DNA from: Coniferiporia sulphurascens
Taxonomy: Eukaryota > Basidiomycota > Agaricomycetes > Hymenochaetales > Hymenochaetaceae
Reading direction: 5' to 3'
Assembly (NCBI GenBank): GCA_002794785.1
Contig: NBBA01000006.1
Span: 744,001-808,000 of the forward strand
DNA: 64,000 nucleotides
Position 1 is the stretch's first letter. The number at the start of each line of letters is the position of its first letter. A program made the position numbers and the translations under genes. The notes beneath the pieces were generated by a model. That model saw only the letters and a list, made by a program, of their open reading frames with translations. It was not told the DNA's origin and did no database searches. Below are positions 2,801-41,823 of this stretch, piece by piece.

Positions 2801-3044
2801 TTATTTAGCCTTATAAATACCATGGATGAGTATAACTGAAATAAATGATGCGTGGCTTGGAAGAACACTTTAGTGACAATCTCCAGCTACAAGTGCCCAG
2901 GATATTGAGAACAATAAGATATTTGCACTGGCCAGGTGACCAGCCGAATCTGGTCAGTAATTGTCTTAGATGTCTTTGGGTGCTGTTCTGGATCTCATGC
3001 TTTGATTTGCAGTTTTGATGAAATATGGAATGCAAGGGCCATGC

Positions 3045-3605
3045 TGTTACAATTTTCCTTTACTTTTCCCTTACTGCGCTGACTCACTTCCTCTTCGTCA
3101 TCATCAGTCAGTGCAACTCCCCCATTTCTCTGCCTTACTCATCCTTATTTCGCCTTGCGCCATAAGACGCCATGATGACACCTTAATGCACCATCATGTT
3201 GTGCTTTGCTTACTGATCACCGTACTTGTATTACCAAGGCCTTCCTTGAGTTTCCATGACCTTCCATAGTCTGGTAAACATACCTAACCAAGTCGCTACA
3301 GTAGCAAACACATAGAGTAGCATATAAGCATGTAACTTCAGTAGCACAAGCCCTAAGCTTGTGCTCTTTGTTCATACAAGCCCATTATCTGCTACCACCA
3401 GTCTACTGTGTGCCACTTGGCCATTCGTCGCTTCGTCGTAACCCGACTCTGCTAAGAAGCATCTCGCATCCACATCGTCAATCAGGAAGCCCCACCGACG
3501 ATCATCTTCGACTTACGACATCTAGGAAGCCCCGTTGCCGTACCCATCAGTCTCGATGATCAGGAAGCCCCAACGTCGATCATCGCATAACCATTGAGCT
3601 TAACA
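3045..3605 (+). repeat. Ty3/gypsy-type solo LTR
   Basis: A 561-bp sequence with TGTTAC...TTAACA ends is flanked by a perfect 5-bp duplication CATGC (3040-3044 and 3606-3610). It is one of five copies here (others at 35059, 57316, 58093, 62469). The 62469 copy precedes a gypsy gag on the plus strand, which sets the orientation. A CATATAAGC TATA-like box lies near 3320. The duplication shows a complete insertion followed by LTR-LTR recombination. Confidence 0.9.
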
Positions 3606-8008: not shown

Positions 8009-9221
8009 TGTTAGTAAATTGATGAAAATCGTGATCGCCGGATCGACGGATTAGCAAGATCGACATGGAGAGACCTGTAAACATAATAGATACTCAGGGA
8101 ATGTGTCAGTGATGTAAAGACACAAATCTAATTAGCTAGAAGGTATTCAACATAGCATGTGCAACAATAGGTGCAAACACAGGATACAATAACTGTCAAA
8201 TCATATTTGATCATACTACAAGGGAAATACCAGTAATGGACAAATGAGAAATTGTAATCAAACACAAAGCCACAATGTTCTCTTACCAATTAAACAAGTG
8301 GGTAATCAATGCTTACATCAGAACTAGGATATGTAATCGGCCACATAATAACTTATGTTATCAATGAACAGTGATAGCACAAACTGATTATGCTAAGAAC
8401 GCCAACCAAATAGTTCACAATATCAATAAGCAATTATGAGAACAAATGTTCACATACATGAACAACTTTGTAGCCAAAGGAAATACAACAGAAGATTGAA
8501 GAGAAGAAGGAACACCTCAGATGATGAACATGGACAGAGAACTCCTAATGTGTTGGATGAATGAAGAACCATCATATTGAGTCATGACAGGTTACAATAG
8601 AATTGCAAACCTTATGAATGCAGGGCCTGAAGAACTCTTTATGCTAATAGATGATAGGACACCAGAGCAAACCCCTTTCACCGATATCATTAATCTATAG
8701 GCGGAACAACTCAATCTTAGTCCATGGTAATAAGTAACAAGCCACAACAAGATAAGATTAAGAAGGCTAGCATTAGCATTGAGCCACACAAGTATATCTA
8801 AGCATTTGGCTAAGAATAGCCGATGGAAGCATGGCGATCAATTGAAGATGCAATTAATGGGAGCCAAGTATAGCGCATCACACAGCAGAACCGATTAGGA
8901 AATAAGGAGAAGCATCATAGGTATAGTAGTATCCAAGAATGGTTAACTTAGATATTATACTGTATGACTCAATGGAAACTCAGGGAAGGTTCTAGCATAA
9001 GATAAAGATAGCACGGTAGGCTGTAGAACATACTGGAATATGTAACTGACTCATAGGAAGCTAAGAACAGTAAATAGCATGTACAGGATTGTACCGGAAC
9101 ATTCCTATGACTTATAAATCAAGAGTAGTACATTGTGGTATCTACTGGAACATAGTAAATAGACTACAACATGTAGGGTATAAAAGCCCAATGTAAAATT
9201 GCAGTAAAAAGCAGTTTAATT
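8009..9221 (+). mobile_element. Element A copy 1, 5' segment (LTR-like, split by the KDZ transposon)
   Basis: Starts TGTTAGTAAATTG at 8009. Its other end, AATCTAACA, is at 27475. The flanks are GTCAG (8004-8008) and GTCGG (27476-27480), a 5-bp duplication with one mismatch. A TATAAAAG box lies at 9179-9186. The part from about 8060 to 8780 aligns at protein level with the open frame of copy 2 (53073-54418) but has several stops. Copy 2 shows the sequence without the KDZ insertion. Confidence 0.85.
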
Positions 9222-10319
9222 CACTTCAGGCACCCCCTCTGGGAAGACCTATTAGGTGTATCAGACCTTTGACATGATTGACCTAATAGACCCTCCTCCT
9301 GGGTGGTATTCCCAAGTGGTCTGGGTGCTCCCAGAGGCTGGGATCTCCCAGGAATTACCTCACTATTTGGTTTGGGAGCTCCCAGCCTTAGATACATGTC
9401 ACAGGGTGTCTGGGGTATTTTTTCTGGGATTTCCCAGCCTTTTTTGACCTATTTTCTGGGGATTTTTTTGCTTTTTTGGGGCTCAATACAGGGGTTCTAC
9501 CCTTTTCATTCTGGTAAATAGTATCCTTGAGGATCAAATTGAGCCCTGCATCCTTTCATATTGGATCAATATGTTCCTGGAACCTCAATGGGTTAAGGGA
9601 CCAGTGATGTCATGGTATGGGTTTGGCCATTTTATGTGGTTCTCCATGCTACTAGCTATTTTCTTCGACCACTAGGGTCTTGCAGGCAAGGGTTGGATGA
9701 GGGGGGTATTGAGGATCTGGGAGCAAATCACACTGAGAAGGTTGAGAAAGAAGGGGATTATAATTCAAGACAATTTATGTATAAAGTAGGGACACTAATG
9801 CACTGCTACATACATGCACTAGTTCCTTTACATTCATAATGTGTTCCTGTTATGTTTCTTTGTATGACATTTGCATCTGGAAAGCACAGGGAATGTGCTA
9901 CAAGGAAATGGGATGGTACATACCCTCCCCATTGTTTTTACAGCACTTGAGGCACGGACATTCTGTAATGCTTCCCTTTCTTGAAGGCCCAGGAAGCTAT
10001 CAAGTGCCTCAAGCATGCACGCCTCAGTGCAGACCCTAACAACACAACCTTAGGCATGCGGCTTGCTAAGCTTTTTGATGAGATCAAGGACTACTGTTCT
10101 GCTGCAGGCTACCACCAGCACACTGGCATAGTCAACACCTCACTATGTGCATTCCCCATGCACTCTCTTCTCTCCTACAATGGCCCTGATGCTGCCTGTT
10201 TTGTGGGAGCGCCCGCAGGACACAATCGCAGGGTTGATAGGGTTTGGGCTGAAGCACACACAAAAAAACCCTGCATAGGAAAGCCCTTAGGTAAAGCAAT
10301 TGCAAACAGAGCTTCAACA

Positions 10320-10580
10320 ACATATTGGGAGTGCCCCATGTGGGCATGCCCACGTTGGGCACTCCCAACATGAGCATGCCCATTAATTGGGAGTGCCCAA
10401 TGTGGGCGTGCCCATTACTTGGGAGTGCCCAGCATGGGCATGCCAAAATATTGGGAGTGCCCACATTGGGTGTGCCCATAGAGTGGGAGCACCCATAGAG
10501 TGGGAGTGCCCATGGAGGGCATGCACTGATGTGGGCACTCCCAAAGGTGGGCATGTCTACCATGGGCGCTCCCAGGCAGG
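10320..10580. repeat. Subterminal GGGAGTGCCC / GGGCACTCCC motif cluster
   Basis: About ten direct and inverted copies of GGGAGTGCCC or one-base variants (GGGAGCACCC, GGGCGCTCCC) occur in about 260 bp, interspersed with GGGCATGCCC-like palindromes. Related GGGAGCTCCC, GGGATCTCCC and GGTGCTCCC motifs lie nearer the end (9300-9440). The same cluster is mirrored at 25970-26230. Clustered subterminal repeats are typical transposase-binding sites in other DNA transposons; the role here is inferred. Confidence 0.6.
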
Positions 10581-11459
10581 AGCACGAACCTCAGTGTTTA
10601 AAGGTGCAGTTACCTGAGCACTGTTAGCTAATGGTGATGTTTATTTTGATATGGTTTGTGCAGAAACTTATGTTTAGTCACTTGATGTGAAAGTGGGCAA
10701 TGGAGATAAGTAGTTTATTAGTTTGTCAGATGTCAGTATCTTGAGTCCATACAAGTCCATCATATATTCAATTTTGCTATGTACATCGTGTATCTAGTAA
10801 TACAACTACAACTACAGAAGACAATGTCATTATAAATGCCCGTAGTCCTAAATGCCTTATAGTAATACAGACCCTTGCCATACATCCATTATAAAGGAAA
10901 AACTGAAACAAGATCAAAAAGGTGGAAAACTGTGAAGACATTAAACAAATAACTAAAGTAAGACTTCCCCTCTAATTTTACAAATCCCCACTAAGATTTA
11001 GAGAAGGTAAAAATATCCATCTGTATAACACCACCCCTGTAAGTGTTGATAAGTATAGTTCAAATGAAACCAAGCAAATGAAAAACATACCAAGTGAACA
11101 AATGGGATGTGATGTGTTCACATCCTTAAGACCCCCCCATCCCAATAGAAGTACAACACCGTAAGGTGTGTACACACATCTGAATAGCTCAAGTGCAGAG
11201 TGGACCTGAGGTCCATAAGCAAATCAGAGCACAAAAAAAAAAAGAAATGCACTGAATGAAAACAAAGTCCAAGGCCTGGCCATAAACCCCCAAACCCATG
11301 GACAAGGCTGCATGCTTGCACATGGACCGAAAAGAAAAATTGTGTGCATATGCACAATGCAAGAACCAGAGCAAGAACATATGAAGATAAAAGGAGGGGG
11401 GGTGGAGTTGTGAGGGGATGGTGGTGGGAGGAAGGAGGAAGAGGTTGAGATGTGAGCAC

Positions 11460-11480
11460 AGAGTGTCGGATTTTATAGGA
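11460..11480 (-). promoter_or_regulatory. TATA box of an outward-facing promoter-like segment, left repeat
   Basis: On the minus strand CCTATAAAATCC (TATA at 11471-11477) is followed by a long CT-rich tract toward 11390, the layout of a fungal TATA plus pyrimidine initiator. It points from the interior toward the left end. The mirrored copy is at 25071-25080. Confidence 0.4.
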
Positions 11481-11728
11481 GGGCGTGCTGCGGCACGGCT
11501 AGGCGGGAGGCGTGGCAGCAAATGCGGCATGCCCTGTGGGTGACATAAGGCAAGACATTGAATAACAAATGTATTCAGCTTCAAATTCCTTGAGAGCTTT
11601 GCCTTGCACGCTGTCTTGTATTACTTCCCTTGATATTTCATGCTCAAAACTATATTTTTCCTGTCACTCACGTACCATATCATCCAGTAGCATCAATGTC
11701 TGATCCACTGGCTCTTGCGTGAGACCTG

Positions 11729-12055
11729 GTGTTATCACCTATCAGCAAAAGCTGTGCTACTCCCAATCAGCCACTGGATAACATCAGCTCACCATTGCCT
11801 CCCTTTGCTTCTCTGTCCATGCTTTATGGAGATGCAGTTCCATTCACTTCCGATGGGTTTGTAGCATTGAGGGCCAAGATCTGTGAGTCCGATGGTATGC
11901 TGCTTGACCTCGATGCTATTTGCAAAAATAGGTCATCCGGCAGAGAGGATGCGCAGCAGGCTCAGTATCCTCCAAACGCTCCAAACTCCTCTGCAACCCG
12001 AGTTAAATATTTTAAAGCTTCCCATATGGCATCATGCATACCTGGTTTCGACTGA
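11729..12055 (+). CDS. Small uncertain reading frame just inside the left repeat
   Basis: A 108-codon frame starts one base inside the repeat boundary. It has ordinary composition, no recognised motif and no close neighbour on the same strand. 12056-12468 shows nothing beyond the 3' flank of the next gene. It may be chance. Confidence 0.2.
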   Translation: MLSPISKSCATPNQPLDNISSPLPPFASLSMLYGDAVPFTSDGFVALRAKICESDGMLLDLDAICKNRSSGREDAQQAQYPPNAPNSSATRVKYFKASHMASCIPGFD

Positions 12056-12468
12056 TTTGTCTCATTGTATGTGTCAGTGTCAATGCTAGAGTGACGCTTG
12101 TACAAGTTCCTTTGTCTGTTCATTGCCATGGCTTGGTTTGTGATCCATTGATATCTCTTGTGGGTTTGCCCAGTTGAGGACTGTGGGTGCACACACACAT
12201 GCATGGCGGCACACCTGTCCCCTTTTCCTGTGCCTGCACTTGTACTTGATCTGCAGATACAGACTGTACATACACATTGTGCTGCTTCCGTACCACAATA
12301 CAAGCTACACTGACATTATAAATTCACGAATATTGAACAAACACACCTATTGTAGTTGACCCATCTACTTAGGCAGTGTAGTCGATCTTACAAGGGGGAA
12401 GGCGCTTCTTACAGCAATTCATTCGAAGTCTACTGACATGAAGGGGAACGTGGCCATCATCCTTGCCA

Positions 12469-15400
12469 TCAATCGTCACCATCACTGTCATCCTCGTCAT
12501 CACTATCTTTCATGGGCCTGGTGAAACCGACCGGGATGGGCACCAGCTGCTTTGTGAACTGGTTGTATATTCTCCACCTATCATCATTGGGCCTACGTTG
12601 ACCCCATACCGGTGGCACATCATAAACGGATATGGGCCCACCCTTGTGGTAGTCAGCTGTATCAGGCAGGTCATACCTTATTGACCCGTCCTTGTAATAG
12701 CTAAACAAAGTCTCATTGAGCTCACAGATGGTATGTGTGGAGTTGCAACTCTCCTTGACTCTCTCATGGAACTCAGGAACTTGGTCAAGTATGAGTAATG
12801 GCAGCCCACTCACAGACTTGACAACAGCAGTGGCTTTAATTGAGTCCAAGTCATCGGCTTTGTAATCTGCGACCAAAACGACATTAGATATTAAGATGCA
12901 GTGACTTACACTGCAAAAATGGGCATACCCTGACTCATGTCCTCAAACCTCAGAACTTTTCCCTCCAACTCCAAAACGTCCTCCCCCTTCTGTAAGCCCT
13001 CCTGCTCCTTGATTATCATGGCCGCAATCCGTCTAAGCATCTTACAAGGTATCATATGGGCAGTGGGATCCTTCGACTCCCAGCTAAAATTGTCCTCATC
13101 TGGGACACCCACAAGACGAAGCTCGTACTTGATGAGGAATGCACGGAACCCTGTGTATTTAACCAGGCTACATGGTGGCTTTTCCTTCGAGTCTTTGCAG
13201 GCTTCTTCCCTCATGTCGAATATTGCCTCTGCAAGTGCAATAGTTAGAAGGATAAATAATCAAAAGACAAGCAATGGACATACTTGCAGATGCATTTAGC
13301 TGTTTGGAATAGAGTGTGTGGTTGCAATATGTGGCGCGGCCATCCGTGCATTCCCAATTTATGCCGAACACTGGTTTGTTGGGTTGCGCTATGCCCCGAA
13401 CATCCAGGTCGGCCATTCTGCAACTAAATGAGTGCAATAAATTACCCAGCCCGAGCAGTACAAAAACCCAGATACAATATACCTTATCATCGCATCGATG
13501 TGCTCACTGGTGCTATTGAAGAAGTACAAATTCTTTTCCATCACTACACAAGAAACTTCTGTACTGGCATATATTGCAGTCGAATCATGCACCTTGGAAT
13601 TCCCAGATATATTGACTGCAAATGTAATGGTCACCATTTGAGTGTCTGCAAAGAATCTCTTCAACTACAATAAATATTATCAGCATTTGCAGACTATACA
13701 AAAGGGCACAAATACCATTTGGACAAATTCATTTTTACCTGTGTTCAACAGTGCTGGGAGGTTAGGTGTCATAACCAGAACGTCCTTTTCATTCGCCTTG
13801 CGCCATTCAAATTGCTCACAGAAGCGCTCCCTGATTTCGTCCTGAGTCATGTCCTGGACACCACCAGGAGCTATACTGTAGTATTTTCTTAAGACCATCT
13901 CATTGTATGGCCCAGATGGGTCTATTGATCACTCAGCAAAAAATCCATCATCGAAATTTAAAAAAACTCGCCTTCCTTTGGTTTTGGAAACTTGTCTTGG
14001 TGCCATGAAGCATACACATTGTATGGGTTTGCCTCTCGAGATTCCTTATACTTAATGCCGAGTTTGCACAGGATATACGACAAGTCGGCCCATCCTTCCT
14101 CCTTGCTGATCGCATCTATCTCCTGCATGAATGTATCATATGCTACCTCCGCTCTTCACATCGTGGAGGTTCATATCGGACCAGCCTTGGACTCCCTGCC
14201 CTGGCTTTCGTCAGGCAATGCCACTCCAACTGACTGTGCTCCACCTTTACCCTTCCTCTTACCATCACTCTTCCTCCCCCTTGATTTGCTTTTGAAGAAT
14301 GTTTCCTAGGATGAGACAAATCGTCACCACTCTCTTGCACACACTCACGTATCATGTCTTCTTTGTCGTCGATATCGCCTTCATGATCAGACAGTTGTGA
14401 CTTGTACTTGTCTTCTGTGCCATCACCATCACTGTCACCATCGACCTCCTCCTGACTAGTTCTCGGAGCAATGGTACGATCAGTTCGATTCCCCCCATTG
14501 CGAAGACCGGTGCAAGCAGAAGGGTTCAGAGGGCCCCCAGTGGCGGACTCGATGGGAACACCCGCTTCATGCAGGGACTGTGGAGAGGAAAGCTGAGCCG
14601 GTGTCCTGGAGTCGTACTCCTCATTAGCTGAGATAGTATGTCAATAAAATTATATGGGCGAGGCTGGATGAAAATCTGCTTACTGGTTGCTCTAAGAGGA
14701 GCTGCTGTGCCTACTGGCACCACTGGCATCCTGCTCGCATCTCCTGAAGACGCATTATCCAATGCATCCATCTGGGGTGATCTCTGCTCTTGCACCCTGG
14801 GTCATGGTGTTGTTGATGGTAAACGGGCTGGGACATGCTGTGTAAAGCTTCTGGCAATGCCGCCCCTTGCAATGACAGCCTGCATATGTGCAGGCAGGGT
14901 CGGTGTATCATTTGCATCAATAGAAAGTAGACTCCCTGCCGGCCCCTCGACTAAAGCTTGATTGCGTTGGTTAGACAATCTGGATGTCATCCTCCTGGAG
15001 AGATTGAAGCTGTCCTCTTCGAGAGATTCTCCCTGTCTTGAACACTTGTTTGGCTGAATATATTGCAAAAAAATTAGGGAGATGATTGAAAGTCAGAAAA
15101 TATATCTTACTACCTCTGCAATGACATTTTCCACAGAATCACCAGAGAGACAATGTCTTGCGCATCCGAGAGCACCTTCCTTGAGGCTTGCCTGTTCGAT
15201 TGCCTGTGGTCTCACCACCTCTTCACATTGATTACGCTCGACCCATTCCCGCTGCTTGCACTGAACTAGTTTGTCCTGTGAGCGAGCAATCCGCTCATAT
15301 TCTGTGTCGACCTGTTCGACCTGCTCAGGCTCAGGCTCAGGACTAGCCCCTTCTTCCTGCCCTTGTTCTGCTTGCGCCGACTTTACCATGTCTTGTTCCA

Positions 15401-15804
15401 TTCACACTCGCTCCATTCGCACTCGCTCCACTTGCCCTGTCTCAGCCTGCTCTTGTTGCAATTGCTGTTGACCGACCGATTCAATATTCTCAGCTTCCTC
15501 CTGACTCATCTGCATAAGTTAACATAATTTTTGTTTGAAGACAGAAAAGTCCTTACCGCATTTCCTGCTCTCCTGGAAATTCTCGCCCCCTTTCCCTTAT
15601 GTTGACCTCCGTTCGTATCTTCTGGGACATTATTTCCGTCTCCAATGGGGTCGTTAGGACAGGCTTTCTTCCTAGCCTTGCTCAATGTCTGGTTTATCAT
15701 CGTCAGTTGGCCAGTCGGTTCCATTTCCTGGCGAAATGTAAGGTGTGGTGCAAAAACTGACATAACAATAAAAGTCAGACCTTGTGCTTATTACTCCTCA
15801 TCAT
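12469..15804 (-). CDS. KDZ cargo gene 1: large unrecognised multi-exon protein
   Basis: Probable start at 15804 (MMRSNKHK), with about eight exons and introns mostly of 50-60 nt whose removal joins the frames; stop TCA (complement) at 12469-12471. The N-terminal half is low-complexity: Gln/Glu-rich with VERVRME repeats, then Ser/acidic, then a basic FFKSKSRGRKSDGKRKGKGG segment. The C-terminal half looks folded, with EEGWADLSYILCKLGIKY, NPYNVYASWHQDKFP, GVQDMTQDEIRERF, FGINWECTDGRATYC, KYTGFRAFLIKYELRL and DDRWRIYNQFTKQLVPIP, and a DSDDEDDSDGDD acidic end. I do not recognise the fold. A TGA at 15402-15404 replaces CGA in one VRME repeat, so this copy may be broken. It lies on the same strand as the Spt5-like gene and opposite the transposase. 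A nuclear DNA- or chromatin-associated role is only a guess from composition. Confidence 0.65.
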
Positions 15805-16630
15805 ACAAACAGGAGGTGTATCAGCCACTTCAGCTAGTTGTATATTAAAAAGTTATTAAATGCGCAGGACAATCACTGCATAGAATATGACTGATACCTT
15901 GTTTTGTACTTCATGTAAACACCATCATGGGGGACGAGAGATGACAAAGAGAAATGAAACGGTGTAGGAATATATGTATACAGGCTGTTTACTGTATGAC
16001 AGATGTGTGCTGTTACAGTCGCAAGACATGAGGACTGGCTCGTGCCCCCCATGGCCTGGCAATGTGGATCATGTGCATGAAAAAAACTTGTGAGTAGACA
16101 TAACCGCCTAATGTCGCCAGGCGCACTTATCTTAATGGAGAGAGTGTTATCATTGCTAATTCACCATCAAAAAACACACCATTCATTTTAGTTCAAGCCG
16201 TTACTAGAATAGAACACGACTAGTAACATGGATTGAACTCGTTTTTTGCTAGGACATACAGGTCATATGGCTTTGCGACTGCACACAAGGCTTTGGGGAT
16301 CATAATCTGAAACCATTCATTTTAGTCCAAGCCAGTGCTAGAATAGATCATGACTCATGTGGATACATTAAAAACTCGGTTTTCGCTAGGACATACAGGT
16401 CAAACAGCTTTGCAACCACACACAAGACTTTGGGGATTGTAATCTGAAACCACATGCAGGACTACCCTGTATATGGAAGGTGGTGTTATTATCACGATCC
16501 CTCGGGTAAAGATAGTGTACTCACATAATTACTTGAAGCGAAACCGGCCCGCCTTGAACTGCAGATGACTTCATCGGAAAGTGAACAAGATAAATGTCAT
16601 CAATTCTATAGCTACAAGTATCCTTATACA
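15805..16630. repeat. Non-coding spacer with a 134-bp tandem duplication
   Basis: Two units begin CCATTCATTTTAGT at 16179 and 16313 and each contains CTAGGACATACAGGTCA and a CTTTGGGGAT tail, ending near 16450. Otherwise I see only the 5' flank of cargo gene 1 and the 3' flank of the Spt5-like gene. Confidence 0.65.
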
Positions 16631-19324
16631 CTACAAACAATCATTTGTATCTGCTAGACACTCGACTTGGGTCACATTCTCAATAGGCTTGGGTGGCCAA
16701 GTGCAATTGTTGGAGTCGACAATCAGTGCCGACTTGAAAAACCCCCCTTCCTTTATTAAGCCCTTAATGGTGACAATGGTCCCCACAAGATCTGGATTGC
16801 CATTGATAACTATTAAATAAATATAACGAACAATATAAATATAGTACGTGGTCATATGAACAACCACCTTACTAAGTAAACGATAACGCAACGATAACAC
16901 CATACGATATAGGAGCTAGTTAGTTATAGTAGTACTAGCCCACGGAACGTGTATATAAGGGGAGCTGGTCTCGCCCTAGAAATATCATCGGTTTACACTG
17001 ATAACCCACCTTGCCTGAACTTCACCACTGCACCTCATCGTCTACCACAACGTGCGTAGATTTTAAGAATAACCAAGGCCAGTTTACCCTTTAGTGGCCT
17101 TCTTGGCCGGAGTGCACTAACCCATGTTAGCTCGGACTGGTAATTGAGCTGAGCATTCTGCATCCTGATGTGTATGTGGCAACAATTGTGATTCAATAGG
17201 CACAGGGAATGTTTGCCCCCACTGAACGATTCTCTCTCCATGTAAATCGGATGAGATGAATCTGAGCGTGAGAAATGTATGTGATATTCTGGAATGCATG
17301 CTTGCAGTGCCGGTGAAAACACCCACATTCCGGGGCCAGAGAAATCTACCCTGAGTCAGCGACAGGAGGGCGAAACGGGCGGATGGGACACTGACCCGTC
17401 AAAGGTTGTGCAGTGACAGCAGACAGAGATTTTGAAGCAATTTTGTCTGCTTCATCTACTGCCCACGGCCCTGCAACGCTCGCACACACAGCAGGTGGGG
17501 GACTTACTGAATGTATACTGTGGGCAGTATATTCCTTTAGTTTTTTCGAATAATAGGCCCTTTCTTTGTCAGAAAGGGGATGTGCACTGTCCAGGCACGA
17601 TACCATCGAGCTGCAACGGTATTAAGCTTCATGGGAATAAACCACTATTGTATTCTTACATGGAGATTAGATGCTTCAACTCTACCATATGTAGAGATTT
17701 ATCGGTCATTCCATCTCACAATATCTGAGCAGTTTTATTGATTGGATGGCAGCTGTGTACATATCTGTAGGTGCCCTTCAGGTTTTTGTCCTTTCGTACC
17801 AAAACATGGAGCCCCTGATATGGATCATGAAAGTGCAGTGAAAGTTCTTTTGAAGTAGAGCATACATGCTCCTGTTCTTGCCTGAAGGCAGGCATGTAGG
17901 TCTCAACCCATTTTGCATGGGTGTTTATCTGGAGGAGTCAAATTGGCAGAATACCACATTGATCATTTATTCCGCAACTAACCTCATTAGTGCCGTCAAT
18001 AGGCTGAATAGATAGAAAGTGCTCATCGACATGAGTTATCATTCCTTCAGCTCCTGTGTTGGTACCTAGTTTCACCTGGACGTGATCTCCGATGGCTAGT
18101 ATATGCCTCACACTGGAGATAGAAATTCGTAGTTCCTTGACTCTGTAGCCACCTGTGTAATCAACGAGATCATAGACGGTGATCTCATCACCGTCCGTGT
18201 CAACGACTACACCACAGAGAGAAGCTTGTGCCCCTGATATAACTCTGACTCTATTGCCACACCTCAGAAAGGGCTCCCCCTTTTCCAGTTTGCCGAAGTT
18301 GCTCTCTGTCAGAGTAAATAATCCGATTTCAAGCAGATTCAGATTTGCCTTTTTCATGAAGTGTATAGCAGGGACTTGTAATTCACATAGACCCTTCCTA
18401 TATGTCCTCTGTCTAAAATGAAACTCAGACTCGCTAATTTTATAAAGCAGGTCCTTAGAGTGGCCAGTTCAACACATCTCGCCATAGTTAAACAATGCCG
18501 GTTCGGGATGCACTTTGCTTTGTCCCCCTTTCAAAGATATACGGGGTATGATCGCCAGGACTATTTTGTCGTTGTCACTCAGCACTGTACAAACACACCC
18601 AATATCGCCTTTGTACAATCCTCTGCATACAACGACCCAATCACCGGGATGGAGTTTGGGGAGAGTAAATGATTCATCATTATCCAGAAGATGCAGAACC
18701 TGTGAATGCTCATTGATTGGCACGGAAAGAATACTCGCTTGGTCGACACTATTGAGATTTCTCCATGCATTGTTAATTTCCACTAATGTATGAGCACGAA
18801 CATAAAATCTTCCATGCAAGACATGTATGGTGAATGCCACACACGGCTTCGATAGGTGTGCATTTATGCGATTTGCATTGAGGAACTCCTTACCAGCCTG
18901 CAGTATAAGCAAGTAGACACTCAGTCTACCAAGAGCAAAACTTAGATACATAAGTAGAAAAAAAATAGCATACCAGGGAGCAGATCATCCAGAGGCATAG
19001 ATCAGGTACAACACCCTTTTCTATTGATTTCTCCCTCTGACTCCGTTCAACATATCTCTTTGCCAGCGTTTTGGCATCGAAGTCTTCTACTGGCGACTGA
19101 GACACATTTCGGGCAAGCATCTGCACACTGGATTTGGGAAAGTCCACATCATCATTGAGGAAATCATCAACTGTATATTCTTTGTCTATACTTTTTCAAT
19201 TCACTAGTCATTATATCTCACCTTCGCCTTTGCCTCCTTCCTCATCCTCCTCAGCACTGTCTGCTTCTTGGGCCTCAATATCCAGCAGTGCCTCAACTTC
19301 ACCAGGTCTTACTCTCTTAGACAT
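16631..19324 (-). pseudogene. KDZ cargo gene 2: Spt5-like NGN/KOW protein, split by a copia solo LTR
   Basis: Starts MSKRVRPGEVE at 19324 with an acidic N-terminus (AEEDEEGG), followed by VDDFLNDDVDF. An NGN-like region at about 19000-18700 includes LWMI, AGKEFLNAN and HVLHGRFYVRAHTLVEI. KOW-type repeats follow: PGDWVVVCRGLYKGDIG (about 18630), GNRVRVISGAQASLCGVV (18260), GDHVQVKLGTNTGAEGMI (18080), YQGLHVLVRKDKNLKGTY (17800) and GNPDLVGTIVTIKG (16790). NGN plus several KOWs is the Spt5 plan, a factor that rides on RNA polymerase II. The long Pol II phospho-repeat tail of host Spt5 is not seen. The LTR at 16811-17068 splits KGKLALV from INGNP, and removing it with one TSD copy (GTTAT on this strand) restores the frame. 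Exons are approximate. Confidence 0.7.
16811..17068 (+). repeat. Copia solo LTR inside the Spt5-like gene
   Basis: A 258-bp copy of the LTR at 1365-1623, with ends TATTAAAT and TTTTAAGA, flanked by a perfect 5-bp duplication ATAAC (16806-16810 and 17069-17073). It interrupts the last coding exon of the Spt5-like cargo gene. Confidence 0.95.
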
Positions 19325-20737
19325 CTGTGCAACGTGATCAGCAAAGTCCGGCACTGTAATCACACAACCTTACCTTTAGTGTAACTGACTAATCAAAAAC
19401 TAAATGCTAAAACATTATATTATTGTTCTTTTACTACCTGCTCTATGTTAAGAGTTATCTATTACACATATCAGCCATGTAAGGATCGAATAAAGAATCC
19501 CAATTTTTTTAAAACTAGGTATCCAAAGTAAATCTAACTAATAAAATGGCTAATTTAAGTCTAGTAGGAAGAAAAAGACAACACAGGGGTATAGCCGATC
19601 GCAGCTAAATGGGCGATGGTGGCGGTTGGGAGAAGAGTTCGGAAGGTGTTCCTAATTTGGTCGACCTGATTGAGTAGAGCAATTGCATGTGAGAAAAAGG
19701 GAATACTTAACTGGAAGTCACACCCTATTAAAATACATAATTGCCACATGCATGATTGCTTGATATTCACACCACTTTCCGCTTTAGGGACACCTTCCGA
19801 TCTTTCACTCTTACCACCACCATCTTTGACTAGTAAAAAACTGTATACTACTTTCTAATCTAAAGTTGCTATATTAAAAAGGAATTACATTAAGTTAACA
19901 GAGCTGAAGTAAGAGCATTGGTAGCATGGTCCTTACACTAGTAATACATTGTGTGGTCAACGTAGCTGGATTAAAAGCATTAGTAGTCAATTGAGCTGCA
20001 GGGGAACCCATCTAGATGCACCTTAATAGTGTGTAACAAATGGTACATGGCCGAATGGAGAGCACAACAGCTTACAGTTGAAACAGCTACTAGAAAAGTC
20101 AAGTTAACCTAAGGCAATACTATACATACCATATTAATAATGGGTAACAAGAAGTACATGGACTGCAAGGGCTCAGCAGCATACTAGTACTGTCAAGAGG
20201 GCCACTTAGGGAGGGACTACGTACCTTATTGAAACAAAGGGGGGTCGTGATAAGCATCGATCATATGTACTGCAACAACTATTAATTGAGTTGTGAAATG
20301 TCGTTGGTAATCTCGGTAAGAAGGCGTCATGTCAGTAATGAGAGGAGAATGCAGATGAAGGGGGGGGGGGATTGAGTTGGCAGGTAGGTCAATGTTTCCT
20401 TCTCTTTTATGTGGGACGTAGCGGGTCATGAGCTCTTAGCAGGTTCACAGGTGCAATTGGATCTATCAGTGTGGAAATTTTTAGCTCAGGGTCAGTTCGC
20501 CTTTATGTTTCTACACCAGAAAGTGGTCACTAAGCATAGGACATGAATGTTCGCTTTGCTTGATGAATCTGCCATATGATTGCAGTTTATGCGGCCCAGT
20601 GCACGGCCGGCCTGTGAATGATAGCTCCGATTTCCATCTGAAGCGACTCCGGACAGTGCCACCCATACATGGCTCTAATAATTCATTTGTCGATTTACCC
20701 TTTTGATTTATTCCCAAATTCTGCTGACTTCCCATAG
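19325..20737. other. 1.4-kb spacer between divergent Spt5-like and transposase genes
   Basis: AT-rich with no convincing gene. It should hold both divergent promoters. A G10 run lies near 20361-20370. No clear TATA box or repeat was picked out. Confidence 0.5.
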
Positions 20738-23700
20738 ATGGGCTTGAAGGGTATAAAACTTACACAGTCTCAGAAGAGAGACCTGAAATCCTGGAGGGAA
20801 GGACCTTCAGGTCTTCTCCCAGGACCACCCTCTTCTGAATATACTGATGGTTCTTCTCCAGAAAAGAGATTTCCCCCACCACTTGTGTTTTTACCAGGTA
20901 ATAGGACACTAGTTCATGTACCCACCTCAGTGCTGCCCATACCATCTAACCCCCATGACATTGATCCGGAGTCTGCCCCAGCTGATGAGGGCATTGCACA
21001 CAATGAGTTGTTTGATCTCATGACCAATGATGCAGAGGAACGCACTGGCTCTTTTTTTATCGCTTCACGGAGGTTACCTCTTGATCCAACTCTCTCGAGG
21101 CATAGGCAGAAGAGGATCTGGCAGTGTCAGAGATGGACCGAGGAAGTAATTCCAATGCTCATTGTGCCTTTCCTCGATGTTCTTCGGCATTCAAAATCAC
21201 TGCACAACCCAGTGGAGCTTCCTGTGGAACCTCGTTGTTCATGTCTGAACCAATGGTTAACCATTCAGGTTTTGTGTGTTTATTGGAATCATGAGTAAAG
21301 TTATTTGACTTACCACCCTGAATCATGAGTTTATTCCATCTCTCAAACCTCAATACCCTGTCCATAGAGACCTGCCCCTGTTGACCGGTGCCGAGACAAC
21401 TCCTTGATCACGGCCCCTTCGGATGCACACCCTGCCTTCCCACCCTGGCTGTTGATTTTAACTTGCTTGAGTTCTGCATCAAGCTCTTTCTGCACTTGAC
21501 ACCGAATCAAACTGCGTTTTGTAGTACGTTAGAGGCTTTTTTGAGGAATCATGGATATGATTTTAAGTCGTTGGTGAGTACAATAATTTTGCCACTCATT
21601 TACAGCTCTATTTAATCGATTTGATAGGATTTGATACAAAAGCGCTTTGGGAACTGCTTGAAATGGTTCAGCACATTGCAAGATGCCATGATGGCTTATG
21701 TTAACAGTGCCATTTCATCTGCCGGTAATGAAGATGTGTACTTGCCTGACAGAGTGACGACCCCTTCAGAGTACATAGGTTCCAGTTCGATCCCTAGCTC
21801 TCCATGCCCAACCAACATTGGGCTGGTCTCTTGTCTCAACCCCCGCCTAAATGATGACTTCCAATTAGACGAACGTGAGTTTATTATGATGTCATCAACA
21901 ACAATGATTACAAGGAAACATACATATTAGTGGAGGACTTCAGCCATGGAAGCTATACCATGGATGCTTTGCCCGAAACCGAGGGTGCAATATTCACTTT
22001 GTACATGTTGAAAACATGCTGATCATCCATCCTATCGGGTTCGGTAGAACATGCCAATACTACCACCGAACCCGGTTCTGAGTGTGGAGAAACCACTGAA
22101 AGCAGACCGAACCCCCGACCTTCAGCCTACCTCCACAAGCGGTGTCCACTCTGTTTTGGGGGAAAGAATTGGACTCGTGATCCTAACTTGGTGTACGTTT
22201 CTTATGCTCGGATATATTGCACTCCCTTTTTGATGTTCCTGCATCTCCTCAGCTTTGATGTGGCGGTCTGTCTGGATGCATGCTTTCAACAAAAGCGGGG
22301 GCAGACAGACTGTGGTCCACCTTACAAACATCTGAAGTCTGTTTTCCTTGATGAGAAGACTGTTAAGGATATGGAAAATGTAGTAGAGTTGATTCACCCA
22401 GTGTGCAAACACAGTCATGGTGGTGCTACCAAAGCAGCAGGCTCAACAAAACTCAGAGTGCCAAATGAGGTACTTGATGAATGTGAACTATCCTTTAAAG
22501 CTGCAGATGAGCGCCATCAGAAAGCTAGCATGCGTTTTTTTTCGGACATGGGTCTCATGGCCCTGCTTTGCTGCCATGATCGGGTCTTATGGTTAGCCAA
22601 CATGCAATCCGCAGGCGAGAAGCAGCACTTTGCTTTCGCCCTGCTTCACACGCTTTTTGAGAACTTGCCGAGTGACACTATCATCGGCGTGCTTTATGAC
22701 GTGGGCTGTCAGTTACATCGCAGTATGGTCAAATGGGGTTTTCTGCCTCAATACGCTGCAAGAATCGTTTTTGCCATAGCAGTTTTTCACATGTTTGGCC
22801 ACCAATGGGCTTGCCAGCTAGTCTATCATCCACGAAAGTGCGAGGGCTTTGGATTTATGGACAGAGAAGGCTGTGAAAGGTTTTGGAGTTCGATCAAGCA
22901 TCTGATACCTACTCTTTGGATTAGTGGTGTGCGTATAGATATTATTTAACCTGCACTCATCCTTGCTAACATTTTTCTCATAAGTTCTACCAGTGTCTAA
23001 CTACAATCGATGCACAAGTGCACCACCTCAGTGCCAATAATCTTTTTAAGCTCAGGGCATGGATGCTCAATCGAACTCGTCAAACTTATCAACGGTTACA
23101 CAATGTGAAAAAAGAATTAGTACGCTGTGCTATACCCGAAGATGAGCTTGCATCCAAGTGGATTAAGCAGGTCGAAGAGCAAACAAAAGCATTGCCATGT
23201 AAGTTGGCTCTTCGAAAAAATTGGATGTACTATAATAACGCATACAACTCAGGTCAGTCAAAGTTGGCGGCACATACTGCAATTGAAGATGTCGCTGTGC
23301 TTCAGTTCAGACCTGAGGCTATTTCCCAGCAGATCCACGCACTTCGGACAAGTCTAGGGAACGAAGACGCCAATATTAGCGAGATTCGGCACTCCATACA
23401 GAGTATGGAAATTGTGTATGCACAAGTCTCTGCAAACCTCCTAGTAAAGAGGAATGCTCTCGGAGTTGGCGATCGAGAAAAACTCGATAAGCTTAAAAAT
23501 AGTCCTTTTCTTAATAACCAGATGAATGTGCGGGCTCTGAAGGCACGTCTGCATGCCAAGATTCAGTCCCGCAAGTTCGAGCTTCAAAGCACTGAGTGGC
23601 CCTATCGGACACAGCATAATGGTATGAAAGGCGAGTTTTTCTAAGTCCTTACTTTTCATTGGCACTAACTCTATAGTCTAGATCATAAGAAGACTGAACT

Positions 23701-24625
23701 AATAGAGTCTCAAGTAAAGCACCGAGATCCTGGAATCATCCAACTCGCAAAGAAGTATAATACATTATGCAAATCTCTTCAAAAACTTGTTAACAAAGGC
23801 AAGGCCCCATGAGGCTCAAGATGTCCGGAACCTGTCGATGTAAAGGGCCTATTTGAATTAGACATTGACAATAATATATGGAACAACATCGGCCTTTACG
23901 ATGAAGATGACATCGACATTCCCCATTGGCTTGGAGATCAAAACATCAGGAATGGTATAAAGGCTTTGCTAGAGGTGCAAAGGTGTGAGGAGGAAGTAAA
24001 ACATCTGGAGAGGGAGAAATCAGCAATGCAAACCTGGTTTTCCGAAACTTGGAGTCTTACTGCAACAGTGTTTCATTCCCCAGGTGAGTTTTTCTTTTAA
24101 CCTTCTTATTTCTATACTTTACCTGATTATCGATTAGAAATATCACCTGGTCTTAAATACACAATTTATCTAAGATGACAATCTCTCCTTGCATTGTATG
24201 TTGAGTGGCAGAGTAAAGTCGAGAGTGTCCCAGTAGCAAGCCACCTTCAATTCGAACCATGGGGACCTACTGAACAGGATCTGGTAACATTTAGGCAAAA
24301 TGAAATGGACACCTGCAGTGTGAGCTATTACGTGAGTCAAGCTAATTCAAGGCGTCATGAAATAGATTCTGATTCGGACTCTATTGAAGCCAAAGGGACA
24401 GAACTTGACGAAACCGATAATGGTGAGTTCCTGGAGCTTGCAGAAACAATTGAGCATGACAACAAGCATACCCTTGCGCTTGATACTCCAGCGGAGGAGT
24501 TGGGGGGTGCGGAATCTACTGAGGATGTGGACGTGGTGGATACAGGTAGTAGACCGGTATTTACTACTCCTTTGAAACGTGCCCGTGTTGGTGATGTACT
24601 GTATTCAATAAGCAGGAACGTTTAA
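20738..24625 (+). pseudogene. KDZ-superfamily transposase
   Basis: This would cut and paste the element. The N-terminal exon (20738-about 21255) ends with RWTEEVIPMLIVPFL and a CSC pair. After a spliced segment come QLLDHGPFGCTP and LAVDFNLLEFCIKLF (about 21390-21490), typical of KDZ N-termini. The catalytic core is one exon (about 22190-22930): CLDACFQQKRG (first Asp), DRVLWLANMQSAGEKQH, LYDVGCQLHRSMVKWGF (second Asp), FHMFGHQWACQLVYHPRKC and GFMDREGCERFWSSIKHLIP (Glu). After a further intron the helical C-terminal part continues, ending with an acidic tail and PLKRARVGD. The three acidic residues of the RNase H fold are present. A TGA at 23810-23812 interrupts the C-terminal domain where relatives have KAPRG, so CGA to TGA is likely. 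Exon borders are approximate. Confidence 0.92.
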
Positions 24626-25070
24626 ATGGGTTGTGCTAAATAGTCATTGATGCGGGATTGCTCAGTTTTGTTTGTGATCTACACAGTTTAGTCGACATTC
24701 ACAAGTCTGTTTGTGCGCCTCAAACCACTGCATTACTGTTAAACATTTGATGAAGAAGGGGGAGGGACGCAATGGTATGCTGATGCTATTTAACGCTGGT
24801 TCTGCTAATAGGGATTGCAACAGGTCTCACGCAAGAGCCAGTGGATCAGACATTGATGCTACTGGATGATATGGTACGTGAGTGACAGGAAAAATATAGT
24901 TTTGAGCATGAAATATCAAGGGAAGTAATACAAGACAGCGTGCAAGGCAAAGCTCTCAAGGAATTTGAAGCTGAATACATTTGTTATTCAATGTCTTGCC
25001 TTATGTCACCCACAGGGCATGCCGCATTTGCTGCCACGCCTCCCGCCTAGCCGTGCCGCAGCACGCCCTC

Positions 25071-25150
25071 CTATAAAATCCGACACTCTGTGCTCACATC
25101 TCAACCTCTTCCTCCTTCCTCCCACCACCATCCCCTCACAACTCCACCCC
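25071..25150 (+). promoter_or_regulatory. Outward-facing TATA and CT-rich leader, right repeat
   Basis: CTATAAAATCC at 25071-25081 is followed by CTCAACCTCTTCCTCCTTCC and more pyrimidines, as in fungal promoters. It points toward the element end and flanking DNA, mirroring 11471-11477. Confidence 0.4.
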
Positions 25151-25969
25151 CCCCTCCTTTTATCTTCATATGTTCTTGCTCTGGTTCTTGCATTGTGCAT
25201 ATGCACACAATTTTTCTTTTCGGTCCATGTGCAAGCATGCAGCCTTGTCCATGGGTTTGGGGGTTTATGGCCAGGCCTTGGACTTTGTTTTCATTCAGTG
25301 CATTTCTTTTTTTTTTTGTGCTCTGATTTGCTTATGGACCTCAGGTCCACTCTGCACTTGAGCTATTCAGATGTGTGTACACACCTTACGGTGTTGTACT
25401 TCTATTGGGATGGGGGGGTCTTAAGGATGTGAACACATCACATCCCATTTGTTCACTTGGTATGTTTTTCATTTGCTTGGTTTCATTTGAACTATACTTA
25501 TCAACACTTACAGGGGTGGTGTTATACAGATGGATATTTTTACCTTCTCTAAATCTTAGTGGGGATTTGTAAAATTAGAGGGGAAGTCTTACTTTAGTTA
25601 TTTGTTTAATGTCTTCACAGTTTTCCACCTTTTTGATCTTGTTTCAGTTTTTCCTTTATAATGGATGTATGGCAAGGGTCTGTATTACTATAAGGCATTT
25701 AGGACTACGGGCATTTATAATGACATTGTCTTCTGTAGTTGTAGTTGTATTACTAGATACACGATGTACATAGCAAAATTGAATATATGATGGACTTGTA
25801 TGGACTCAAGATACTGACATCTGACAAACTAATAAACTACTTATCTCCATTGCCCACTTTCACATCAAGTGACTAAACATAAGTTTCTGCACAAACCATA
25901 TCAAAATAAACATCACCATTAGCTAACAGTGCTCAGGTAACTGCACCTTTAAACACTGAGGTTCGTGCT

Positions 25970-26230
25970 CCTGCCTGGGAGCGCCCATGGTAGACATGCC
26001 CACCTTTGGGAGTGCCCACATCAGTGCATGCCCTCCATGGGCACTCCCACTCTATGGGTGCTCCCACTCTATGGGCACACCCAATGTGGGCACTCCCAAT
26101 ATTTTGGCATGCCCATGCTGGGCACTCCCAAGTAATGGGCACGCCCACATTGGGCACTCCCAATTAATGGGCATGCTCATGTTGGGAGTGCCCAACGTGG
26201 GCATGCCCACATGGGGCACTCCCAATATGT
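25970..26230. repeat. Subterminal GGGCACTCCC motif cluster, right repeat
   Basis: Mirror of the cluster at 10320-10580, with the same spacing and variants. Confidence 0.6.
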
Positions 26231-27327
26231 TGTTGAAGCTCTGTTTGCAATTGCTTTACCTAAGGGCTTTCCTATGCAGGGTTTTTTGTGTGTGCTTCAG
26301 CCCAAACCCTATCAACCCTGCGATTGTGTCCTGCGGGCGCTCCCACAAAACAGGCAGCATCAGGGCCATTGTAGGAGAGAAGAGAGTGCATGGGGAATGC
26401 ACATAGTGAGGTGTTGACTATGCCAGTGTGCTGGTGGTAGCCTGCAGCAGAACAGTAGTCCTTGATCTCATCAAAAAGCTTAGCAAGCCGCATGCCTAAG
26501 GTTGTGTTGTTAGGGTCTGCACTGAGGCGTGCATGCTTGAGGCACTTGATAGCTTCCTGGGCCTTCAAGAAAGGGAAGCATTACAGAATGTCCGTGCCTC
26601 AAGTGCTGTAAAAACAATGGGGAGGGTATGTACCATCCCATTTCCTTGTAGCACATTCCCTGTGCTTTCCAGATGCAAATGTCATACAAAGAAACATAAC
26701 AGGAACACATTATGAATGTAAAGGAACTAGTGCATGTATGTAGCAGTGCATTAGTGTCCCTACTTTATACATAAATTGTCTTGAATTATAATCCCCTTCT
26801 TTCTCAACCTTCTCAGTGTGATTTGCTCCCAGATCCTCAATACCCCCCTCATCCAACCCTTGCCTGCAAGACCCTAGTGGTCGAAGAAAATAGCTAGTAG
26901 CATGGAGAACCACATAAAATGGCCAAACCCATACCATGACATCACTGGTCCCTTAACCCATTGAGGTTCCAGGAACATATTGATCCAATATGAAAGGATG
27001 CAGGGCTCAATTTGATCCTCAAGGATACTATTTACCAGAATGAAAAGGGTAGAACCCCTGTATTGAGCCCCAAAAAAGCAAAAAAATCCCCAGAAAATAG
27101 GTCAAAAAAGGCTGGGAAATCCCAGAAAAAATACCCCAGACACCCTGTGACATGTATCTAAGGCTGGGAGCTCCCAAACCAAATAGTGAGGTAATTCCTG
27201 GGAGATCCCAGCCTCTGGGAGCACCCAGACCACTTGGGAATACCACCCAGGAGGAGGGTCTATTAGGTCAATCATGTCAAAGGTCTGATACACCTAATAG
27301 GTCTTCCCAGAGGGGGTGCCTGAAGTG

Positions 27328-27475
27328 TTTAATTCATCTCTTGTCTCTTACCACCATCATCAGCTCTAACACTCTAGTGAGTGAAGGGTATCAAGCCTGC
27401 CCTAAACTAACTAGTATCATTGTGTGAATCTGTTATCACTTGTTTCTAACCCTTAATCAGGGAGCAAATCTAACA
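27328..27475 (+). mobile_element. Element A copy 1, 3' segment
   Basis: Resumes after the KDZ insertion (TTTAATTCATCTCTTG) and ends AATCTAACA at 27475. It contains the leader CTCTTACCACCATCATCAGC, about 50 nt beyond the TATA box of the 5' segment once the insertion is removed. It is the same as 53073-53220 on the minus strand. Confidence 0.85.
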
Positions 27476-33989: not shown

Positions 33990-36900
33990 TTAACAAAAAT
34001 GTATATGCAGCTACGAAAAATTTAACATTATTTGAACTTCACAAAAAACTCGGTCATATAAGCTACACTTACATAAAAAGATTATTAAAAGAAGACCAAA
34101 TTACAAATAACAAAATTACAAATTATGAAGAAACTCAATGTCAAATTTGCATAGAAGCAAATATAAAAAGAATACAAATCCCAAAATTACATGTTTCAAA
34201 GTTAGCAGAAAAATTTGGTGATCATATACATATGGACATATGGGGACCCGCATCAACACATGCTATAGGAGGATATAAATACCTTCTAACACTAATAGAC
34301 GACACTACTAGATGGATTAAAATGATTTTAATAAAAACAAAAGATGAAAGTTTTAGCGGTTATACAACTTGGGCTACAATGCTCAATACACAACATAATA
34401 TAACAATAAAAATATTACAAAGTGATAATGATACAGTGTTTTTAAGTAAACAATTCACTGAATATTTAGAAAAACATGGAACAATATGAAAATTAACCAT
34501 ACATGATACACCACAACAAAATGGTGTAGCAGAACAATCACATCAAACAATTTTAAATAATACATGAGTTAATTTGCTACAAGCAAAACTGCCACCAAGT
34601 TTATGGGGTGAAGCAGTAAAATATAGTACTTACATTTACAATAGAACTCCAAAGAGTGCTATTGATTTTAAAACACCATATTACAAAAGATATAATGAAA
34701 ATTATAACATAGACAATTTAAAGGAATTCAGCCAATATTGCATAATATGACAAGAAGATGTTACTAAATTACAACCTAAAGGAATATATGCACAATGGCT
34801 CAGATTTGACGAAGAAAGTAAAGGGCACAGAACATATCATGACAGGAAAATAACTGTCAAATGAAACTTACAATTTCTAGATTCTCCACCATCTAAAATT
34901 GAAGGGGAGAAAAATATAGAAAAACAAAACAAGCAAATACAAGAATTAACAAAAGAAAGACCAAAAAGAACATTAAACCCAACAAAATGATCATTAGGTC
35001 TAAATTTTGATGAACAAAACATGGTAGCCTATCTTATGGAATTTAATCAATTCAATACTGTTAAGCTCAACGGTTATGCGGTGATCGACGTTGGGGCTTC
35101 CTGATCGTCAGAACTGATGGTACGGCAACGGGGCTTCCTAGATGTTGTAAGTCGAGGAGGATCGTCGATGGGGCTTCCTGATCGACGATGTGGACGCGGT
35201 AGGCTTCTATAGCGAGTCGGGTTACGACGAAGCGACTATTGGCCAAGAGGCACACAGTAGACTGGTGGTAGCAGATAATGGGCTTGTATGAACAAAGAGC
35301 ACAAGCTTAGGGCTTGTGCTACCGAAGTTACATGCTTATATGCTACTCTATGTGTTTGCTACTGTAGGGTCGTGTATTAGTATGTTTACATGTCTATGGA
35401 AGATCATGGAAACCCAAGGAATGTCTTGGTAATACAATTGAAGGTATCAGTAAGCAAATCACGTCATGATGGTGCAAGAAGGCGTCATCATGGCATCTTA
35501 AGGCGTAAGGCGAAATAAGGATGAGTAAGGTAGAGAAATGGGGGAGTTGCGCTGACTGATGATGACGAAGAGGAAGTGAGTCAGCGCAATAAGGGAAAGT
35601 AAAGGAAAATTGTAACAAATACGGAATTAATAGGCGATCCTAATTCATATCAACAAGCGATCAATAGAATTGATGCAAATCAGTGGATCACAGCAATGAA
35701 AGAAGAAATAAAAACGTTAATTGAAAGATCTACATGGACAATCATTGATCCACCTAAAAATACAAATATAATTGGAACAAGATTTGTTTATAAAACAAAA
35801 AGATTAGCAAATGGGGAAATTGAATGTTACAAAGCAAGACTAGTAGTTCAAGGATTCGCCCAAATGGAAGGCATTGACTACTATGCTAATGATACATTCG
35901 CTCCAGTAGCATGACTAGCTACAGTATGAACTATATTAAGTTGGAGTGCAACAAACAATTATGAAATTCACCAAATTGATATTAAGTCAGCATACTTATA
36001 TGGTGAATTAGAAAAAGATGAAAATATATATATAAAACCACCACCAGGAAACTTAGTCAAAACTAAACCTGGAAAATTTTTTAAATTAAACAAAGCCTTA
36101 TATGGACTAAAACAAGCTGGCAGATGTTGGTATAAAAAATTATCAGAAATATTACTAGGAATTGGACTTATGTGAGCAGTCCAAGACAATGCAGTATTCT
36201 TTAGAAAAGAAAAAGGAAAAACAATCCTTGTACTTTTCATTCACATTGACGACATTACTTTATGTGGATTAAATCTAACAATTATTAACGCTATAAAAAA
36301 TGCAATTAATAAACAAGTTAAATTCACAGATGGAAGCAATGTACATTGGTTACTAGGAATTGAAATCGAATGAGATCAAAAAGAAAGAATAATAAAACTT
36401 AGACAAAAGAATTATATTGATACAATCATTGAACAATACAAATTAAAAGACGCTGCAACAGTATGAACACCAATGACACCAGGACAAGTGTTAAAATCAC
36501 TTGAAAATCCAACAAATGAAGAATTAAATTTCATGAGACAAATACCTTACATGAATATGGTTGGAGCATTACGATATGCAGCAGATTGTACTAGACCTGA
36601 TATATCATTCACAACAGGTCAATTCACTAGGTATTTAAACAAACCTAGTATTGAACACTACAATGCAGTAAAACACTGCTTTAAATATTTAAAAGGAACA
36701 AATGATTATTGGTTAATACTTGGGGGTAAAGACCCAATTGAGTTAATTGGATATACTGATGCTGATGGTATGACACAAGAAGGCCATAAAGCAATATCTG
36801 GATATATATTTCAAATTGGAAATGCAATGACATCATGGTCAAGTAAAAAACAAGAATTAGTGTCATTATCAGTATGTGAAGCTGAACTTCAAGCTTTAAC

Positions 36901-41350: not shown

Positions 41351-41823
41351 ATGGCTAGGGACTTACAGTTAGCAGTTACTGAGGTGCCCACACATGCGAT
41401 GAGGTGGTCATCAACATAGGCCAGCAGTTGAGAGCCGCACTGTTGAAAGTGCTGCAGCACAATGCCAGCAAAGATGGTCAAGAGGATGGGTGACACTGGT
41501 GATCCTTGAGGGGTGCCGAGGTTGGGTTTAGGCACAGTCAGTAGGGTTGTGCCATCAAAAGAGACAGCCACTTCCCTGCTTGTCATGAAGGAGAGGCACC
41601 ATGACACCATTTCTGGTGGGCATCCCATCTCCAATAGCTGGTGGTGGAGATGTCTTGGGTGCACTGAGTCAAAGAAGCCTTGAATGTCCACTGCTAGGAT
41701 GGAGCAGACTAGGCCTTTTGAGTGGGCGCCATCGATGATCTGTAGGAGGTGCTGGGCAGTGTCATAGACTGAATGGCCCTGACAATTCCCATATTGGTTA
41801 GGTGGCAGCCAGTCCCACTCCAA
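41351..41823 (-). pseudogene. LINE reverse transcriptase fragment between two LINE 5' ends
   Basis: Reads WLPPNQYGNCQGHSVYDTAQ, LAVDIQGFFDSVHPRHLHHQ, LGTPQGSPVSPILLTIF and AYVDDHL: RT motifs for palm strand, GxxQG and YVDD. It aligns to 60421-60880 in the LINE at 55569. Each side is joined directly to a LINE 5' leader, one on each strand. Confidence 0.85.

Follow-up and report, generated by a model that had tools for sequence, protein, structure and literature searches.

Specialised paralogs of NusG, RfaH among them, occur in bacteria and on plasmids, where a dedicated NGN-KOW factor serves a subset of transcription units. Factors of the RfaH type work with the bacterial polymerase and with an operon-specific DNA element. 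In eukaryotes, the plant protein KTF1 and Spt5m of Paramecium are precedents for specialised paralogs of Spt5. KTF1, also named SPT5L or RDM3, combines NGN, KOW1, KOW4 and KOW5 with a GW/WG tail and acts with Pol V (excerpts of PMC10229537), and Spt5m is a host developmental gene (abstract of PMC8934623).

With regard to transposons, Kyakuja, Dileera, Zisupton and other fungal DNA transposons carry TET/JBP dioxygenase genes, which are thought to counter silencing and some of which have been reported to pass between lineages; the same source, in the passages available, describes two Kyakuja families with CA..TG ends, a 7-bp duplication and no terminal inverted repeats (TIRs) (PMC12730594). The elements KDZ1 to KDZ3 of Cryptococcus neoformans carry a KDZ transposase, TIRs of 139-241 bp and duplications of 4-8 bp (excerpts of PMC12810828). 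Term searches returned no mention of Spt5 or KOW in PMC12730594, PMC12810828 or PMC12062965 and no occurrence of 'transpos' in PMC13289920. Among the top matches listed for open PubMed Central, a scope outside which the founding KDZ paper (PNAS 2014) falls, none describes a transposon that carries an Spt5 or KOW gene.

The KDZ element and its Spt5-like gene

The window, meaning the whole stretch of 64,000 nucleotides of Coniferiporia sulphurascens DNA that was analysed, holds a whole DNA transposon at 9222-27327 (18,106 bp). Its TIR arms of about 2.5 kb, the left at 9222..11750 on the plus strand and the right at 24800..27327 on the minus strand, align over 2,530 bp with 99.7% identity when the window is compared with itself. 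The element termini read CACTTC...GAAGTG, and CACTTCAGGCACCCCC starts both ends, the end motif being present at other places as well. A 7-bp target-site duplication, TTTAATT, flanks the element at 9215..9221 and 27328..27334 (no strand assigned). The KDZ transposase gene region lies on the plus strand at 20738..24622, with the KDZ domain at 22257-22916 (PF18758; profile search, 6.2e-52, 176.9 bits against a cut-off of 26.6). The original observation of an Spt5-like gene inside the inverted repeats of a KDZ element is confirmed. A third gene region is left as fragments on the minus strand at 12469..15763; two of its pieces (12909-13259 and 13961-14155) have 31-32% amino acid identity to a strongly diverged element, and three pieces scanned against Pfam gave no match. 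The CpG observed/expected ratio of the element is 0.44 overall.

Both TIR arms also contain arrays of palindromic units (TTGGGAGTGCCCA / TGGGCACTCCCA, with a period of about 32 bp) at 10318-10527 and 26023-26232, which from their sequence are candidate, putative transposase binding sites. Elsewhere in the window, a repeat family of about 563 bp is found in both orientations with 80-92% identity (3032-3605, 35056-35617, 57315-57875, 58093-58668 and 62469-63028), and a big imperfect inverted repeat at 40236-42937, with arms of about 1.1 kb at 74%, is possibly a further element.

The Spt5-like gene (Spt5L) occupies 16631..19324 on the minus strand and is a decayed copy, with exons that were read by hand. 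An acidic first exon begins at the ATG at 19322-19324 and is followed by the NGN and KOW1 exon (18472..18897), after which an in-frame TGA is found at 18469-18471. The KOW2-KOW3 block spans 17941..18468, its tail from about 17982 probably being an intron. Then come a KOW4-like block (17719..17937), which is kept among the copies, has no match to Pfam KOW and precedes a further in-frame TGA at 17716-17718, and two blocks located with the C-terminal query on the same strand: the GPGMW block at 17068..17355 (C6:761068-761355) and the KOW5-like block at 16637..16816 (C6:760637-760816). An inserted repeat of about 258 bp, with approximate limits at 16811..17068 and no strand assigned, interrupts the last exon, and related copies of it lie elsewhere in the window. 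The two stop codons and the insertion leave the gene broken, and the window copy is therefore unlikely to yield a full protein.

Relationship to Spt5

The KOW profile (PF00467) matches the window gene in two stretches of the KOW2-KOW3 block (3.7e-9, 36.5 bits against a cut-off of 22.3), and the Spt5-specific KOW1 and KOW2 profiles match as well (KOW2_Spt5, 3.4e-6), both under their own cut-offs. The Pfam NGN model (PF03439) misses the window exon and genome-wide matches only the host Spt5 (C14). The NGN-KOW1 exon nonetheless aligns with the host Spt5 exon (2.2e-8), and the family has about 26-27% identity to host Spt5 (C14:1087885). With regard to the fold, the evidence comes from a relative in Phellopilus, P0001, and not from the window copy: this protein aligns with a solved Spt5 chain from NGN through KOW3 (5e-13), matches KOW1_SPT5 (1.8e-6) and, under the cut-off, Spt5_N (3.3e-4), and its structure model (mean pLDDT 58.7) matches archaeal and yeast NGN and Spt5 KOW2-KOW3 structures. 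Together, the alignment of the window exon and the modelled fold of P0001 support a predicted NGN fold in Spt5L. The domain order is collinear with that of Spt5, from an acidic N-terminus through NGN, KOW1 and KOW2 to KOW3. Hence the expected acidic N-terminus, NGN-like stretch and roughly five KOW repeats are recovered, KOW1 to KOW3 by profile, alignment or fold and the KOW4-like and KOW5-like stretches by eye; a profile search finds KOW significantly, and NGN, missed by Pfam, is reached through alignment and fold.

Certain features of Spt5 appear to be altered. No Spt5-type C-terminal repeat is evident in P0004 of Phellopilus, the sole full-length annotated relative, a result that rests on one automatic gene model; the entire protein has 3 S/T-P motifs, compared with 11 in the last 235 residues of Fomitiporia Spt5, and it has 0 GW/WG motifs. 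Its structure model (mean pLDDT 42.8) is too poor for judging the C-terminal blocks. In the NGN domain, a Glu that is kept in 10/10 Spt5 rows having NGN is replaced in all 18 Spt5L rows with data, by Gln in 12, Arg in 2, Leu in 2, Asp in 1 and Cys in 1, the counts being made without P0003, which has no NGN part, and without Suillus P0033, an Spt5 record that lacks the NGN domain and groups with Spt5. This residue corresponds to position 338 of the solved Spt5 chain 8jch_W, counted from the alignment, and we take it to be an Spt4 contact.

In each protein search for relatives, some 8,000 candidates were scored. A tree of 30 rows, from which the C4 place is absent, puts 14 copies and five further proteins in a single clade (100/100) separate from basidiomycete Spt5; this answers the call for a phylogeny with host Spt5, and Spt5L does not group with fungal Spt5 as an orthologue would. 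The host Spt5 groups with Fomitiporia Spt5, to which it is 83% identical. The five proteins comprise four from Hymenochaetales (two from Phellopilus and one each from Coniferiporia and Phellinidium) and one more. Since the Coniferiporia protein groups with one genome copy and the Phellinidium protein with others, either the family diversified before the genera split or the gene moved between them. The branching at the base of the clade is weakly determined.

Recurrence, selection and decay

A search of the 39.35-Mb genome with the NGN-KOW1 exon gives 17 matches, which correspond to host Spt5 and at least 15 places, two matches representing one copy. A query with the C-terminal blocks adds at least five places with no match to this exon, C4:594020 being counted together with C4:603057, and the three of these that were read (C7:405840, C14:1006834 and C1:247143; C20 and C31 were left out) are truncated. 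All place counts are lower bounds. KDZ has 24 matches, or 20 places once neighbours are merged. A KDZ gene lies within 25 kb of Spt5L at 10 of the 15 exon places (10/20 if the C-terminal-only places are included), within 12 kb at 8/15 and within 5 kb at 5/15, these limits having been picked after the positions were known. At all ten linked places, the closest KDZ is upstream on the opposite strand, in divergent orientation. As a control, of 150 reverse-transcriptase places scored out of 1034 candidates, 0, 4 and 6 were within 5, 12 and 25 kb of KDZ, with 0, 1 and 1 divergent; the Fisher tests were made on the 15 exon places, with the C-terminal-only places outside. Chance clustering of repeats is judged unlikely from this control and the constant orientation. 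No KDZ was found within 25 kb at the remaining 5/15 exon places or at any of the five C-terminal-only places. This linkage was assessed in one genome, other species being represented by proteins only.

Further whole or partial elements can be recognised. Those on C17 and C18 have an identical terminal 16-mer at both ends, and that at C12b has it perfectly at the right and possibly, with three mismatches, at the left; no 7-bp target duplication was found at these three. The C1b, C12a and C3a copies have common DNA around Spt5L and over KDZ, with 76-94% identity. At C1:1383890, a KDZ without Spt5L has one end of the window family 6 kb off and no second end at up to two mismatches, and it therefore looks truncated. 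A second CxC2 KDZ group, with five places, goes without an Spt5L of its own, so the gene is not needed by KDZ in general; one member, C6:712654, lies 23.5 kb from the C6b Spt5L copy, behind a nearer KDZ. The KDZ partners of Spt5L split into two deep lineages in a KDZ tree in which 9/20 rows are short of columns (38-48% filled), and Spt5L is therefore either old in KDZ or has passed between lineages. The congruence of both trees is partial, as the C6b copy has a CxC2 KDZ yet groups with other Spt5L.

As a separate observation, near-identical LTR-like repeats in opposite orientation (C1:1028748-1030223 and 1040065-1041540) mimic element ends around an Spt5-like gene. These 1.5-kb inverted repeats around the C1:1033869 copy were rejected as element ends, being two LTR-like repeats (TG..CA) with their own 5-bp duplications.

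Selection was assessed against a null in which the observed substitutions were redistributed by base and CpG context, in 300 redraws run both ways. In 9 of 12 Spt5L pairs (S1-S2, S14-S9, S7-S9, S10-S6, S10-S13, S6-S13, S12-S14, S12-S1 and S11-S8), none of the 300 redraws in either direction gave a pN/pS ratio as low as the observed one, with dN/dS of 0.23-0.31 where it could be computed and synonymous sites near saturation in several. In the pair S3-S2 the observed value was reached by 12 and 10 of the 300 redraws, and the recent pairs S1-S3 and S14-S7 were no different from the null. Among three KDZ pairs, constraint is seen in K1-K2 and K1-K12 but not in K1-K3. One or more stops are present in the extracted stretches of 8/14 copies and none in 6/14. 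These data fit selection on Spt5L while the elements jump, followed by decay of the copies. With regard to silencing, CpG observed/expected is 0.40-0.90 in 13 of the 14 copies as compared with 1.21 in host Spt5, the sole host control gene, a base composition that would fit silenced copies having been methylated and deaminated. DNA-methylase is found at two places in the genome; Tet_JBP has no match there, and the control genomes are silent too.

The copy at C2:136.1-138.7 kb stands in a different setting. Its CpG observed/expected is 1.20, and that of its surroundings is 0.91-1.36 in 14/14 kilobase windows; it has long open frames, with no internal stop in the stretch extracted, and a sub-threshold match to NGN (PF03439, 0.0068). 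Its neighbours are a UbiA-type prenyltransferase and a WD40-like frame, with no KDZ, and no inverted repeat longer than 18 bp was seen in the 14 kb read around it. In the tree it is nested in the clade beside a KDZ-linked copy (97/92). Judged from its sequence, this candidate gene model may have been domesticated by the host, or it may be a recent lone insertion.

The gene was thus not captured at one locus only: it lies beside KDZ at 10/15 places, always divergent, and is under purifying selection in 9/12 pairs. It is well supported that several KDZ families have, as a standing gene under selection, an old Spt5 duplicate oriented divergently to the transposase, and the original label of cargo is too weak, because of this recurrence in the same divergent order and this selection.

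Possible functions and known systems

In Spt5, the NGN domain touches the clamp coiled coil of the polymerase (passages of PMC3382729), and KOW1, KOW4 and KOW5 are placed close to the channel for upstream DNA, to the stalk and to the exit of the RNA (passages of PMC10229537). By analogy, Spt5L would dock on RNA polymerase II with its NGN at the clamp and its KOW domains close to these other sites, and would aid elongation where the chromatin of the element itself is silenced and probably CpG-methylated. The retained NGN and KOW domains, the lack of an evident C-terminal repeat in P0004 and the replaced Glu lead us to favour, as an inference, a private elongation factor on silenced element DNA. 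Since P0004 shows no such repeat and the presumed Spt4 contact is replaced, Spt5L probably acts with fewer partners than Spt5 has, and possibly with no Spt4. That Spt5L, as an integral KDZ gene, serves as a private Pol II factor for elongation or against silencing has, in our estimate, somewhat less than an even chance; the suggestion made at the outset, that the element may use an elongation factor of its own or interfere with silencing by the host, is plausible. A compound reading, in which a KDZ lineage encodes such a factor as an RfaH counterpart and the C2 copy has in addition been domesticated as a second Spt5, seems doubtful.

The same combination of retained NGN and KOW domains with no Spt5-type repeat in P0004 has the shape of a competitor, and Spt5L could be a dominant-negative decoy that weakens co-transcriptional silencing by competing with host Spt5 or by tying up Spt4 or exit-channel RNA. 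Such a decoy is unlikely: the C-terminal blocks are conserved too, and the loss of the Glu assumed to contact Spt4 argues against Spt4 sequestration. In two KDZ lineages that differ strongly, Spt5L and the transposase gene are paired divergently, which would also suit a KOW nucleic-acid binder that acts together with the transposase on mRNA or on the ends of the element, in transposition or copy-number control; we consider this quite unlikely, given that the polymerase-docking NGN is retained, the NGN-KOW3 region is constrained and a five-place KDZ group does without its own copy.

The open, CpG-normal C2 copy between ordinary genes, and the fact that KTF1 is itself an Spt5 paralog (passages of PMC10229537), could point to a KTF1-like silencing adaptor, host-used or of host origin, which KDZ elements picked up. 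This seems improbable, as P0004 has no GW/WG motif, plant RDM3/KTF1 matches less well than Spt5 (6.5e-7 against 5e-13) and the C2 copy is nested beside a KDZ-linked copy, although the clade base is weak. As for a passenger, a fragment of host Spt5 captured once and hitch-hiking, the broken window copy and the unconstrained recent pairs are what it would predict, but constraint in most pairs, one clade over several genera and the two KDZ lineages speak against it; recurrence, phylogeny and selection make this one-off capture very improbable. The selection result already counters the passenger reading by itself, provided that its null is not badly wrong.

If the private elongation factor is real, it could be the means by which the element stays transcribed under host silencing, and it would allow tests of how silenced chromatin is read by Pol II. 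The family also provides diverged Spt5s as a natural collection, in which the presumed Spt4 contact, and perhaps the C-terminal repeat, appear dispensable. Compared with Spt5, the DSIF subunit, Spt5L is multi-copy, lies in transposons, is diverged and has the NGN Glu replaced, whereas the KOW4/5-like stretches are alike. Plant KTF1 is likewise an Spt5 paralog and is linked to silencing in the accounts available; Spt5L differs in keeping KOW2-3 and in having no GW/WG in P0004, and fungi are not known to have Pol V. For Paramecium Spt5m, the abstract of PMC8934623 gives no transposon link.

Among KDZ elements, the window element agrees with the Kyakuja families, as far as these are described in the passages available, in its CA..TG ends and 7-bp duplication and differs in its 2.5-kb TIRs, no reference Kyakuja being in the tree, while Cryptococcus KDZ1 to KDZ3 are shorter and have CxC1 and KDZ domains (excerpts of PMC12810828). 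Spt5L would be a second type of accessory gene in KDZ elements, after TET/JBP; the latter is an enzyme on methylated DNA and the former a polymerase-factor look-alike. Transposon proteins thought to undo silencing marks are known, and a private elongation factor would work in another way, on the polymerase and not on the mark. Among eukaryotic transposons, Spt5L would correspond to the specialised NusG paralogs, the operon-specific DNA element being a property of RfaH.
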